Shown: one piece after another, positions 58,580-63,530 of the stretch
Numbering within the stretch: position 1 is the stretch's first letter
How the letters are laid out: every line of letters starts with the position of its first letter
Assembly (NCBI GenBank): GCA_028286395.1
Contig: JAQBRS010000003.1
Coordinates: 62,001-126,000 of the forward strand
Origin: Candidatus Saccharimonadota bacterium
GTDB taxonomy: Bacteria > Patescibacteriota > Saccharimonadia > Saccharimonadales > Saccharimonadaceae
Direction: 5' to 3'
DNA: 64,000 bases
Notes under the pieces: model-generated
Seen by the model: the letters and a program-made list of their open reading frames with translations, nothing else
What the model was told of the DNA's origin: nothing
The model's database searches: none
Translations under genes and position numbers: made by a program

Positions 58580-58933
58580 ATGGCTGCATTCCCAGACGAA
58601 GTGTTCGTCTCAAAGCCCGTCCATCAAAAGCTGAGGATTCACATTGAACCCAGACGTTTCTACCCGCAAGCGGTGTGGGAGCTCATCTCCCTCCACATCA
58701 CCTACATCATTGAGAGCAATCCAAACATCGAGATCGTCCGAAGCGAAGTCGTACAGATGCGCTTCGGCGAAAAGCGCTGGTTTCACCAACGCACTTTCTA
58801 CCTTGAATTTGAGGTGGAGAACAGCCAGTCGATGTTCGACCACGCTGCGATGACAGAAGCGCTGTACGCCTTCTTCTTCACGCTCGAACCGGCCGCGTTC
58901 GGAAGTGATTTCGAAAAAGTGGACAAGGAGTAA
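58580..58933 (+). CDS. 117-residue protein of unknown function, GC-rich class
   Basis: A small soluble alpha/beta protein (VHQKLRIHIEPRRFYPQAVW, then EIVRSEVVQMRFGEKRWFHQ, then FYLEFEVENSQSMFDHAAMT) with no family I recognise. GC-rich codons, a TATAAT promoter about 65 nt upstream, GAAAGG ribosome site and its own terminator mark it as one of the GC-rich class genes here. Confidence 0.6.
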   Translation: MAAFPDEVFVSKPVHQKLRIHIEPRRFYPQAVWELISLHITYIIESNPNIEIVRSEVVQMRFGEKRWFHQRTFYLEFEVENSQSMFDHAAMTEALYAFFFTLEPAAFGSDFEKVDKE

Positions 58934-58936
58934 CAT

Positions 58937-58989
58937 GTTCGCCGAAAAGGTTCGCCCACTGTGGCTTGAGCCCGACCGGCGAACTTTTT
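58937..58989 (+). terminator. Terminator of the 58580 gene
   Basis: GTTCGCCG 58937-58944 pairs with CGGCGAAC 58977-58984, closing a long loop with its own GC-rich pairing, followed by TTTTTCG. Confidence 0.75.
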
Positions 58990-59034
58990 CGTTTTATCGA
59001 TACAGATTTGCCTATTATATAATAGTATAAAGAT

Positions 59035-60657
59035 ATGGGAAGAACGTCGGAACAAGAGAACACTCAAGATTCTGAAAGTACGCAGGAGCGTCGTGAGGCA
59101 CTCGCTGTCCTAGATCCACGCGATCCGATTGATGCCGAAATCATTAGATACAAAACAAAAATACATAAAGAGGAAACACCAACACAACTCGAGCAAAAAG
59201 AGCTCATACGAACCATCCGCTTCGACGAAGACCAAACCGCTGCAGACAAACTCGTCGCCATCAATAAAGGTTTCATCGCGACAATCGCTTATCAATTTAA
59301 ATCCGAGACATTTAATAATACCGAGGAACTTTTTGAAGCCGGATCTGTCGCGCTCCTTGAAGCCGCGACGCACTACGGCCTAACTGCTTCAAGGGTCAGC
59401 TTCACAAATTACGCTGCAGCGCATATTCAAAATACGTTGAAAGGGGTTGCTCCGGAAGTTCAGGCCCCATACCTTATTAATGACGAGCCGCAACCGCTTT
59501 TAACTATCTACAAATTCCTCTCGACACTGAAAGCAATGAAAAGGTCTGAGTTGGACGAACATACAAGAACAACCATTCTCTCACATGCGGATCTCGTATC
59601 GCTACTTCCGTTAACCGACGAGGAACTCTTCGAAAAAAGAGGATTGAACTCTAGCACATTCTACAAGAACTTGCATTCACTGTACGAAACGCTTGGCATC
59701 CCTAACCGAGCCAGCCTCGCACTTGTAAGCAAAAAAGCAGGTATTGAATTCGACATAGCGCCAATTCCGAAAGGGACCCACTTTACGCCAACTGAACGAA
59801 GGATTGCTCCATATCTGCATCTTAAGTTTGCGGAAGCTGCAAAGATCCTCGACTATAGCGAAGAGAGTGTAGAGCGTGTTTCAACCGGTCTTCGCGCAAA
59901 ACTTGGTGCACGAAGTCGAACAGAACTCGTGCTGATGCTTGATACAGCCGACCTGCGTGAACCAGCACCAAAACCAAAAGAAGTCGAAGAATTTACGTCA
60001 TATGAATTAAAGGTACTTCCATTTATCCAGCACGAAACATCAGTCATTATGCAATTAACAGGACTCACAAATAGTGGTGTTCAAACCGCCCTCAATAAAG
60101 CGTTCAAACGAACGGGGACGAACTCACGCCAAGCATTAGCGCTTAATTTGTTAGAACGTGGCTTTCCGCTTGCAGTCGCACCACCAAAAGATTCGCTGAG
60201 TGCGCTCTTTCATGAAAAGCAAATGGACGTACTGAAAAACCTCCAGCTTGAAAGATCAGAAGTTGCACGCTTAGGCGACATGACCGAAAGCGCAGTTTCC
60301 TCATTCATTTACGAAGCACAACAAAAAACGGGCGCACGCACCCAAATAGAATTACTCCTTATGGCGCATCTCTACGATACGGGCGAGCGACGAGCGAAAG
60401 ATGAACGAACGAAGCATGAAAGACTTGCCGAGAAGCTAGGCTGGGGAACGCTCAATGCCGAACGCCTGAACGGACTCCTTGATACGCTTAACCCAAAACA
60501 ACAAACACTTATAAAAAGTTATTACTTATCCGGTGAAGAAGTCACCTGGAATGCAATTGCCAAAGGATTGGGAATTGATACCCACGTCGCGATCAGCACT
60601 GCGCACTATGGGCTTCTTCGTATGAGAAATCGTCTTGAAACCGATTCTGCCGCCTAA
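59035..60657 (+). CDS. Sigma-70-like protein with four LuxR-type HTH repeats
   Basis: A 540-residue protein with an order I do not know from any described sigma factor. Residues 70-136 read as sigma region 2 (LVAINKGFIATIAYQF, NNTEELFEAGSVALLEAATH, RVSFTNYAAAHIQNTL). Residues 183-446 hold four LuxR-like helix-turn-helix repeats, each ending in a G-x3-R-x2-L signature: LGIPNRASLAL, LGARSRTELVL, TGTNSRQALAL and TGARTQIELLL, with their Gly at 221, 291, 361 and 433. Residues 477-533 read as sigma region 4 (LLDTLNPKQQTLIKSYYLSG, then WNAIAKGLGIDTHVAISTAH). TATAAT lies about 11 nt before ATG 59035. Likely a DNA-binding transcription initiation factor. Confidence 0.72.
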   Translation: MGRTSEQENTQDSESTQERREALAVLDPRDPIDAEIIRYKTKIHKEETPTQLEQKELIRTIRFDEDQTAADKLVAINKGFIATIAYQFKSETFNNTEELFEAGSVALLEAATHYGLTASRVSFTNYAAAHIQNTLKGVAPEVQAPYLINDEPQPLLTIYKFLSTLKAMKRSELDEHTRTTILSHADLVSLLPLTDEELFEKRGLNSSTFYKNLHSLYETLGIPNRASLALVSKKAGIEFDIAPIPKGTHFTPTERRIAPYLHLKFAEAAKILDYSEESVERVSTGLRAKLGARSRTELVLMLDTADLREPAPKPKEVEEFTSYELKVLPFIQHETSVIMQLTGLTNSGVQTALNKAFKRTGTNSRQALALNLLERGFPLAVAPPKDSLSALFHEKQMDVLKNLQLERSEVARLGDMTESAVSSFIYEAQQKTGARTQIELLLMAHLYDTGERRAKDERTKHERLAEKLGWGTLNAERLNGLLDTLNPKQQTLIKSYYLSGEEVTWNAIAKGLGIDTHVAISTAHYGLLRMRNRLETDSAA

Positions 60658-60697: not shown

Positions 60698-61153
60698 CTA
60701 TTCAACGCGTCGCGCAAATAACTCTTCCGTTTCATGCATAAAGATCTCGGCAGTCTTTGGCCCGACACCATAGAGTGTCTGGAGTCGTTTCGAAAACTCA
60801 TCTTCGTCGAGGCTACTATCGAACATTAATACTAATGAGCCTTCGTATTCACTGACGAGTCGCTCCATGCAGCGATGCAGTGCGTGTGCGGTTACTTCGT
60901 CGTAGCGCGTGTATTTGCCCTCATCGAGAATAGTTTTTAGTTGCCAATGTGTCATATCAAGGATTGCCCATGGGGTATCAATCTTTCTTTCGATAAATAT
61001 CCGCCAGGTGTTAATAGCGACCGTCGACTGAATCGGCTTTCCAAAAAGAAACGACAGCAAAAACCAACGAAACAGGTCGTCGTCGCCAGAGGTGACATCA
61101 AGCCCAAATTCTTCAGCAGTATGAACCGGCTTCGGTTTTTTCTCTCGTACCAT
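60698..61153 (-). CDS. HhH-motif protein, possible DNA glycosylase-like fold
   Basis: A 151-residue protein with a C-terminal helix-hairpin-helix (RLQTLYGVGPKTAEIFMHE) and helical N-terminal half (FRWFLLSFLFGKPIQSTVAI, then MTHWQLKTILDEGKY), similar to the endonuclease III/HhH-GPD layout. The catalytic Lys/Asp pattern and the Fe-S cysteines are not evident, so activity is uncertain. The frame is open to 61207; ATG 61153 lies 7 nt after TATAAT on the minus strand. It is divergent from the HrpA-like helicase with interleaved promoters. Confidence 0.7.
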   Translation of the reverse strand: MVREKKPKPVHTAEEFGLDVTSGDDDLFRWFLLSFLFGKPIQSTVAINTWRIFIERKIDTPWAILDMTHWQLKTILDEGKYTRYDEVTAHALHRCMERLVSEYEGSLVLMFDSSLDEDEFSKRLQTLYGVGPKTAEIFMHETEELFARRVE

Positions 61154-61155
61154 TA

Positions 61156-61181
61156 GCACTATTATACGGTACAATGAAGCT
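61156..61181. promoter_or_regulatory. Interleaved divergent leaderless promoters
   Basis: On the minus strand TATAAT occupies 61166-61161, serving ATG 61153 (7 nt). On the plus strand TACAAT occupies 61170-61175, serving ATG 61182 (6 nt). The -10 boxes are 3 nt apart, so each -35 region falls in the other gene's start and polymerases cannot bind both at once. Confidence 0.65.
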
Positions 61182-63530
61182 ATGGAGATTCCCGAATCTA
61201 GCTTCATTACAGACTTACCGATCTACGATTACCATACAGCTATCACCGAAGCTGTCGATGCCAATCAAGTCACCATTATCACTGCCGAAACCGGTGCAGG
61301 TAAAAGCACCCAGGTACCGCAATATCTTGCCGATCACGGCTATAGCAAAGTTATCGTCACGCAACCCCGTATCCTTGCCGCACGAAACTTGTCAAAACGT
61401 GTTCGCGAAGAGTGGGAAGCACGTACGCATGAAAATGCCGAACACGTCATTGGGTACCGTACCGCTCACGAGCGTGATGACAATCCTGGCACACAAATTC
61501 TGTATTGTACCGACGGGCTACAATTGGTTCGTGAAATTACGGGTGCAGGCACAACTGATAACCAAGTCCTGATTCTCGACGAAGTGCATGAGTGGAACGA
61601 AAACATGGAGGTCCTTGTTGCCTGGGCAAAGAAACGTTGCCTCGAAGATCCTCATTTCAAAGTGGTGATCATGAGCGCAACCATCGATACCGCGCCATTA
61701 GCCACATTCTTTAATACCACTGCAGTAATCACTGTTCCAGGACGAAGCTTTGCAGTAAAAAAACGTCTTGGTTCCGACATCATTGCTGAAATCTTAAACA
61801 AGATCGAAACAACGAACAGTAATATCCTCGTCTTCCTGCCTGGTAAATCCGAAATCCAAAATGTAAGTGATGCAATTGCGAAAAAAGCCTCTGCTGCAAG
61901 CATTCCCGTTATTCCATTGCACTCGCAACTGGAGGCAACTGCCCAACAAGAAGCGTTCGCCAACTATCCAAATGGAAAGATCATCTTGGCGACAAACATT
62001 GCTCAGACAAGTGTCACAATTGACGACATTGACGTCGTCATCGACAGTGGACTAGAGCGACGTAGTGAAGTACGGAACGGCGTTGAAGGCTTATTCATTG
62101 CACAGATCTCACAAGCGGATTCTTTGCAACGTGCTGGCCGTGCGGGACGTACCAAAGAAGGGGAGTATATCCTCGCGCCATACGACGTCATGCCGTGTTT
62201 ACGATTTGAAGAACGACCCGAATACGGAACACCTGAAATTCTAAGAAAACACATTGATCGACTCGTATTACGCTTAGCGAATATTGGTATCGACATTGAA
62301 TCACTCGATTTTTATCACGATCCAAGCAAGGGTGCCATACGTCGCGCAAAGCAAACTTTGATTGCACTTGGTGCAATTACCTATGCGGGAGACGTGACGA
62401 GTATCGGTCGTAAAATGGAGCGCTACCCAGTCGAATCAAGTTACGCACGTATGATCGTAGAATCAGAATTGTATGGTCACGAAGTCCAAACAAAATTGGC
62501 AGCCATTATTGCGATCCAGGAAGTCGGTGGCATCGCCAAAGGCGGCACTCGCTACACGGGTTGGCATAAGTATACGAAACAAAAACGATCGGATCTTTTA
62601 GCACAGTATGACCTGTATTTAGCCTTGCCGAATATTTATCCCGATGACTATGAAGACCTAGGCATCATCAGTAAAAATGTCACGAAAGCCCGTGAAGTCA
62701 TGGAACGTCTGAGTAGTGACCTAGCTGACATTGACGTAGACGATTCTTTGTTAACACCAATCACCGAAGACGAGCAAAACTTCCTGATGCGTTGTATCGT
62801 GGCGGGACAAATTGATCAGCTTTGGACAGTTGATGCCGAAGGAAATGCTACGCACATCTCAGCGAGGGTGACGCGTGAACTATCCGCAACCACTGTTGTC
62901 AGGAATCCGACGCTCATTGCTGGGACACCATTTGATCTTGAGGTTCCAACGCGCGACGGCACGCTGCAAACGCTCCACCTGGTGCAGGGGATTACGGCTG
63001 TGAATACAGAATGGCTTATCGACCTCGCGCCAGAACAATTCGCGACCAAACGAGGCAAAATGGTCTACGATCCACGATCGGGCAGTTTGGTAATTCGACA
63101 ACAAATTCGTGCTGGCAAACAAGTCTTTGAAGGCACGGGCATTCCTGTGACACAAAACACTCGACAGAACCAAAAGTTTTTTCAAGAAGCACTGGCAAAG
63201 TGGGTCTACGAACAATTAGAAAAAGAACGGTATGCCTTAACCAGCTCGCATAGCAAGCGCATTCCACAGGTACCATATCCTCAAGTTCGTCGTTTAGTAT
63301 CATCACTCGCCAGTAACAGTATCACCCTCGAATCAATCTCACCAAGCAAACGCCAGCAGTTATCCGAGTTATCGAAACTTGCCACACACTTCGGCGTCGA
63401 CTTTATGAATCAAGTTGCTTCAACCTTCAGAAAAGAACACACGCCAGGACGACACCACGCACATCGCGGATGGAAGCCAGGGCATAAACAACGAGAATCA
63501 AAACGCGACAATCGGCGTCGGTTTGATTGA
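61182..63530 (+). CDS. DEAH-type RNA helicase (HrpA/HrpB-like)
   Basis: A 782-residue helicase: Walker A TAETGAGKSTQVPQYL, motif II LDEVHEWN (DEVH), SAT in IMSATIDTAP, motif V ATNIAQTSVTIDDIDVVID, motif VI QRAGRAGRT, then winged-helix/ratchet and OB-like C-terminal parts, with a basic His/Arg-rich tail (HTPGRHHAHRGWKPG). It probably remodels structured RNA or ribosomes. The glycine-rich signatures agree with the DEAH family, not DEAD. TACAAT ends 6 nt before ATG 61182. Confidence 0.9.
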   Translation: MEIPESSFITDLPIYDYHTAITEAVDANQVTIITAETGAGKSTQVPQYLADHGYSKVIVTQPRILAARNLSKRVREEWEARTHENAEHVIGYRTAHERDDNPGTQILYCTDGLQLVREITGAGTTDNQVLILDEVHEWNENMEVLVAWAKKRCLEDPHFKVVIMSATIDTAPLATFFNTTAVITVPGRSFAVKKRLGSDIIAEILNKIETTNSNILVFLPGKSEIQNVSDAIAKKASAASIPVIPLHSQLEATAQQEAFANYPNGKIILATNIAQTSVTIDDIDVVIDSGLERRSEVRNGVEGLFIAQISQADSLQRAGRAGRTKEGEYILAPYDVMPCLRFEERPEYGTPEILRKHIDRLVLRLANIGIDIESLDFYHDPSKGAIRRAKQTLIALGAITYAGDVTSIGRKMERYPVESSYARMIVESELYGHEVQTKLAAIIAIQEVGGIAKGGTRYTGWHKYTKQKRSDLLAQYDLYLALPNIYPDDYEDLGIISKNVTKAREVMERLSSDLADIDVDDSLLTPITEDEQNFLMRCIVAGQIDQLWTVDAEGNATHISARVTRELSATTVVRNPTLIAGTPFDLEVPTRDGTLQTLHLVQGITAVNTEWLIDLAPEQFATKRGKMVYDPRSGSLVIRQQIRAGKQVFEGTGIPVTQNTRQNQKFFQEALAKWVYEQLEKERYALTSSHSKRIPQVPYPQVRRLVSSLASNSITLESISPSKRQQLSELSKLATHFGVDFMNQVASTFRKEHTPGRHHAHRGWKPGHKQRESKRDNRRRFD

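Follow-up and report, generated by a model that had tools for sequence, protein, structure and literature searches.

A protein encoded by a Candidatus Saccharimonadota bacterium carries four LuxR-type HTH units between sigma-70 region 2 and region 4, an architecture that is real, conserved and undescribed in the domain libraries and papers we searched. Its gene lies in the window, the whole 64,000-nucleotide stretch of DNA that was analyzed (assembly GCA_028286395.1, contig JAQBRS010000003.1, positions 62,001 to 126,000). Sigma factors are the promoter-finding part of the transcription machinery, and the spacing between their regions 2 and 4 normally fits the distance between the -10 and -35 elements. 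LuxR family regulators normally have one C-terminal HTH, preceded by a sensor or receiver domain. The genomes of Saccharibacteria are reduced and encode few regulators, and little is known of how genes are switched in these bacteria. Our best reading, about which we are evenly divided, is that the window protein is a sigma-derived regulator that would dock on RNA polymerase, take its choice of DNA from the LuxR array and control its own promoter. More tentatively, it may represent a distinct Saccharibacteria class of sigma-70-derived proteins in which a four-unit LuxR array replaces -10/-35 recognition and sets promoter choice.

The features discussed below are as follows, with coordinates in the window.

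58943..58991, + strand: terminator-like hairpin belonging to the upstream gene, with a T run after it (-26.1 kcal/mol, z -3.46)
59012..59025, no strand: candidate operator, the perfect 14-bp palindrome CTATTATATAATAG spanning the -10 box (from sequence)
59018..59023, + strand: perfect TATAAT -10 hexamer, 11 nt upstream of the ATG (from sequence)
59035..60657, + strand: whole ORF, encoding the sigma-like protein and its four LuxR-type HTH units (540 aa)
59140..59454, + strand: sigma-70 region 2-like domain, residues 36-140 (NCBIfam, PDB profile search, hhalign)
59455..59559, + strand: linker, residues 141-175, without a sigma region 3 match
59560..59769, + strand: HTH unit 1, residues 176-245, Gly 221; lowest conservation of the four units, net charge 0
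59770..59979, + strand: HTH unit 2, residues 246-315, Gly 291; slightly basic, modelled with AlphaFold
59980..60189, + strand: HTH unit 3, residues 316-385, Gly 361; highest conservation of the four units, basic
60190..60405, + strand: HTH unit 4, residues 386-457, Gly 433, Gln in place of Arg; conserved tail YDTGERR
60460..60654, + strand: sigma-70 region 4-like domain, residues 476-540, degenerate recognition helix (Pfam, hhalign)

Sigma-like ends and LuxR-type repeats

The domain order of the window protein runs from sigma-70 region 2 through four LuxR-type HTH units to region 4. This is the layout proposed in the preliminary description, and homology searches recovered both ends as well as the repeats. 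No family with region 2, four LuxR units and region 4 is present in the domain libraries searched, nor did we find a sigma factor with internal LuxR repeats in the literature searched, which takes in a minority of subscription journals. Pfam and NCBIfam matched neither region 1.1 nor region 3 in the protein, and no receiver, ligand-binding or sensor domain. The same 851-kb genome also encodes an ordinary RpoD (C4, 341 aa) and an ECF-like sigma factor (C5, 174 aa), so the window protein is an accessory and not the housekeeping factor.

Similarity to sigma region 2 is clear in several searches and extends over about residues 36-140, a wider span than the residues 70-136 first assigned to it. Two NCBIfam models match below their curated cut-offs, sigma70-ECF (E=3.1e-10, 39.9 vs 42.9 bits) and RpoH (E=2.5e-8, residues 36-132). 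A four-member family profile run against the PDB matches SigF (2.1e-6) and SigA (1e-4) in this region, and hhalign of residues 35-139 against 15 Saccharibacteria sigma factors gives probabilities of 94-96% (E 1.6e-7 to 4.8e-9). Individual residues are less well kept. The W-W dyad is A-H in an alignment with RpoD, the F-S-T-Y-A motif is F-T-N-Y-A (F123 and Y126 kept, likewise in the ortholog of a second species of the genus, G015), and the positions of region 2.2 that we take to contact polymerase in other sigma factors are only partly conserved in the alignment. Region 2 diverges even further in distant homologs.

The region 4 end is degenerate. It matches Pfam Sigma70_r4 just over the cut-off (E=1.5e-5, 24.8 vs 24.1 bits) and sigma factors by hhalign (prob 63, E 7.2e-5). 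With homologs pooled the match is weak, the best PDB matches being terminase small subunits (0.004), with RpoH at only 0.48, and the canonical RERIRQ of the region 4.2 recognition helix is missing from the window protein in the alignment. To call the protein a functional sigma factor would go beyond this evidence: homology is found at both ends, and the promoter-reading residues of regions 2.3/2.4 and 4.2 are not conserved.

The four internal units are homologous to one another. Their signatures read G221-IPN-R225-AS-L228, G291-ARS-R295-TE-L298, G361-TNS-R365-QA-L368 and G433-ART-Q437-IE-L440, exactly as first described, including the spacing of 70/70/72 residues between the glycines and the Gln of unit 4. 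When units of one position were held out of the training set and compared with 5000 shuffles each, units 1-4 scored 13.5, 38.5, 26.4 and 28.9 bits against 10.6, 11.8, 11.9 and 10.8 for the best shuffle, and every shuffle was beaten.

The repeats are of LuxR/NarL type by sequence and, for unit 2, by predicted fold. Each single unit of the window protein falls under the Pfam GerE cut-off (7e-4 for unit 2), and the G324 homolog, which belongs to a different family within the order, scores above it (31.8 vs 23.5 bits). An AlphaFold model of unit 2, built on an alignment of the eight units of two orthologs, is a four-helix HTH (pLDDT 84), and its top 50 Foldseek matches in the PDB are all LuxR/NarL-type proteins (NarL, ComA, GerE; TM about 0.7). 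The Foldseek E-values of 0.02-0.2 are high because the domain is short, and the argument therefore rests on the family-wide agreement of the matches. A full-length model built on a two-row alignment reached a pLDDT of 37 and was discarded.

One alternative is that the repeats arose by duplication of the sigma region 4 HTH and are not LuxR domains. Both kinds of domain are four-helix HTHs, the repeat profile does align with sigma region 4 by hhalign (E 1.2e-5), and the TIGR02937 match extends over unit 2. However, matches to GerE/NarL are orders of magnitude stronger, both by hhalign (E 1.5e-13 for GerE domains of other Saccharibacteria) and in the PDB (NarL 1.9e-7, ComA 9.5e-7, GerE 1.4e-5; best sigma 0.35), and LuxR domains typically end in G-x3-R-x2-L. 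Together with the uniformly LuxR/NarL-type structure matches, these results largely refute a region 4 origin, which we regard as very improbable.

As LuxR/NarL/GerE domains (PF00196), the units share the four-helix HTH and the G-x3-R-x2-L end with known members, and NarL, ComA and GerE are the closest solved structures. They differ in standing four in tandem, internally and without a receiver or ligand-binding domain, so that the whole-protein LuxR layout with its single C-terminal HTH is not found, and in most of them the stretch joining helices 1 and 2 is shorter by about two residues. Their recognition helices differ from that of NarL and from each other.

Only part of the array is likely to bind DNA. 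The net charge of the HTH core is neutral in unit 1, basic in unit 3 and acidic in unit 4, both in the window protein and in G324; that of unit 2 is +1 in the window protein, -1 in G015 and +6 in G324. Since a basic tendency is confined to units 2 and 3, and given their constraint (see below), these two are the likely DNA binders. The earlier suggestion of six DNA-contacting modules is thus probably an overcount, with the reading residues of regions 2 and 4 largely lost and units 1 and 4 neutral or acidic.

Known sigma factors offer partial parallels. Members of sigma-70 groups 3 and 4 (SigF/SigB/FliA, ECF) likewise have an N-terminal region 2 and a C-terminal region 4-like HTH, but the window protein has about 280 aa of LuxR HTHs between the two, and its promoter-reading residues are degenerate. 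No recognizable anti-sigma gene was found among the immediate neighbors of its gene. Sigma factors of the ECF41, ECF56 and CorE (ECF238) types carry a fused regulatory domain, which is a SnoaL_2 domain in ECF56 and a Cys-rich extension in CorE (PMC3426412, PMC7730460, PMC8999054). They resemble the window protein in combining sigma ends with an extra fused module; in these ECF types, however, the module is a C-terminal extension, whereas in the window protein it appears from its sequence to be an internal array of DNA-binding type.

Homologs, constraint and tandem LuxR proteins

The gene is rare but is found intact in more than one genome. An ortholog with 86% identity and the same neighbors is present in G015, the gene is missing from 15/17 genus members, and a family-profile search finds carriers in 4/393 genomes of the class. 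The order first seen in the window recurs in another Saccharibacteria lineage: the G324 homolog (574 aa, 29% identity to the window protein) has region 2, four units spaced 71/74/73 and region 4 in the same order. A shortened homolog in G355 (359 aa), from a third family, has two units and no region 4. Unit 1 of the window protein pairs with unit 1 of G324 (z 16) and unit 4 with unit 4 (z 23), and this one-to-one pairing implies that the array predates the split between the two or was transferred whole. Outside the class, phylum-wide matches to the family profile are as a group short, covering region 2 or one or two units, and none has the full order. A phage origin is not supported, with no homolog in viral contigs, phages or plasmids.

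The small number of carriers, and the absence of the gene from most of the genus, could suggest chance resemblance, a pseudogene or an assembly artefact. The ortholog pair refutes this explanation: the ORF is a single frame with 0 internal stops, it is intact in two genomes with syntenic neighbors and under purifying selection (dN/dS 0.068 overall between the window gene and the G015 ortholog), and a homolog at 29% identity keeps the same order. A frameshifted gene confined to one genome, against which the preliminary description had warned, is thus not what we observe.

Constraint is uneven along the protein. Identity to G015 is 77% in region 2, 74% in unit 1, 91% in unit 2, 96% in unit 3, 92% in unit 4 and 86% in region 4, so that the best-conserved repeats are units 2-4. 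In several parts of the gene synonymous sites are almost saturated, which makes dN the safer guide; dN/dS is 0.136 in region 2, above units 2-4, and 0.024, with dS saturated, in region 4.

These patterns bear on the possibility that the window protein is a full alternative sigma factor, in which region 2 would melt the -10 element, region 4 would read the -35 element and all four LuxR units would add upstream or spacer contacts, for the total of six DNA-contacting modules suggested in the preliminary description. Both sigma ends are recognizable, F123 and Y126 are kept in the window protein and in G015, and the FliA/SigF-like sigma factor of G009 likewise lacks the W-W dyad. Conversely, the tyrosine of the F-S-T-Y-A motif is lost in G324 and G355, the region 4.2 recognition residues are not conserved, region 2 is less constrained than units 2-4, and neither unit 1 nor unit 4 is basic. 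We consider a full sigma factor rather unlikely.

Tandem LuxR HTHs also occur elsewhere in the class. LuxR HTHs are present in 37/393 class genomes, and the premise that they are normally single holds for LuxR at large but not for several other Saccharibacteria, with three in tandem in G158 and two in G346 and G192. In G028 (L088:9580-11147, C4), an ECF-like sigma gene is followed after 30 bp by a gene for a 283-aa protein with four GerE repeats spaced 72/72/73. By analogy, this pair may be a split counterpart that connects four-unit LuxR arrays with sigma factors; as its repeats show no particular closeness to those of the window protein, it looks parallel rather than a direct relative. Tandem proteins of G387, G158, G346 and G028 resemble the window array in having two to four HTHs per chain and differ from the window protein in that none of these chains also matches sigma region 2.

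Further tandem proteins were seen in passing. G387, from another Saccharibacteria family, has five consecutive genes for LuxR-HTH or similar proteins (L139:4357-8498, C71), some of them encoding at least two HTHs in tandem, and a TIR-like gene and a histidine kinase lie nearby. Proteins of 355-358 aa in G346 (L083:1258-2325) and G193 (L140:3442-4518) have LuxR-type HTHs behind an unassigned N-terminal part. The first HTH of G346 also has the shortened turn between helices 1 and 2 and, outside the family, matches the window repeats best.

Candidate promoter and proposed role

The region upstream of the gene suggests a promoter that the protein itself may control. The 100 nt 5′ of the gene are nearly identical in G015, though synonymous sites of the genes have strongly diverged, and the terminator-like hairpin stretch differs by 1 substitution between the two species (G000 and G015). 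The perfect -10 hexamer, which like the palindrome over it lies just beyond the coordinates of the preliminary description, is probably used by the housekeeping RpoD, which would yield an mRNA with almost no leader. Upstream of the gene, no -35 element on the + strand exceeds the scan threshold, and there is no Rfam match around the gene. The CTATTATATAATAG palindrome occurs a single time in each of the two genomes, with 1 mismatch allowed, and the chance of a palindrome of at least 14 bp in such a 100-nt stretch is about 0.009. Autoregulation through this palindrome over the protein's own -10 box is probable on this pattern; it is possible that the symmetric -10 arose by chance.

A different use of the same site would make the protein a DNA-binding repressor or a local regulator that has kept a sigma scaffold but no longer touches RNA polymerase, with the palindrome at its own -10 box as main site. 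Regions 2 and 4 are degenerate in the family, with region 4 absent from G355, the palindrome is found once per genome, at the gene's own promoter, and the conserved part of the protein is units 2-4. However, region 2 keeps the core sigma pattern (E 3e-10) and region 4 is under purifying selection, with the caveat of its saturated dS. We therefore consider such a repressor unlikely.

In the reading we prefer, a sigma-derived regulator, the N-terminal region 2 and probably the C-terminal region 4 would dock on RNA polymerase, as their homology suggests. The choice of DNA would have shifted from the -10/-35 surfaces to the LuxR/NarL array, mainly to units 2 and 3 as judged by charge and constraint, and units 1 and 4 would probably space the array or contact partners. 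Acting beside RpoD and one ECF sigma factor, the protein would bring polymerase to a regulon of few promoters with long or composite sites, and its own promoter would be controlled through the palindrome over the -10 box. Several results count against this reading: the weak region 4 with homologs pooled, its loss in G355, the partly kept region 2.2 contacts, the low pLDDT of the full-length model, the single copy of the palindrome, the differing recognition helices and the slightly acidic unit 2 of G015.

Four built-in LuxR modules suggest a mode of promoter choice undescribed in the papers searched. If this reading is true, promoter specificity can move from regions 2.4 and 4.2 to an inserted HTH array, and promoter choice can be set by a modular array inside a polymerase-bound subunit. 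The protein would also offer a concrete handle on a Saccharibacteria regulon and a natural case in which to ask how much a sigma factor can be lengthened between regions 2 and 4.

Neighboring genes

The genes on either side vary in conservation. Just upstream, a 117-aa ORF (58580-58933, + strand) is 35% identical to its G015 counterpart, while neighbors are 82-99% identical, and it has no Pfam, NCBIfam or PHROG match. Downstream, a 169-aa ORF without a family match (60698-61207, - strand) lies between the sigma-like gene and a helicase gene, ends with an HhH-like motif (LYGVGPKTAEIF) and is absent at the G015 locus. Genes at the HrpA-like helicase locus of other genus members were considered as diverged orthologs of the sigma-like gene and are unrelated to it. 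The helicase itself (61182-63530, + strand) is an HrpA/HrpB-like DEAH protein (E 3e-74, below cut-offs); its G015 copy, 97% identical, lies 27 bp directly downstream of the sigma-like gene, and an HrpA/HrpB-like helicase is present in about half of the genus.
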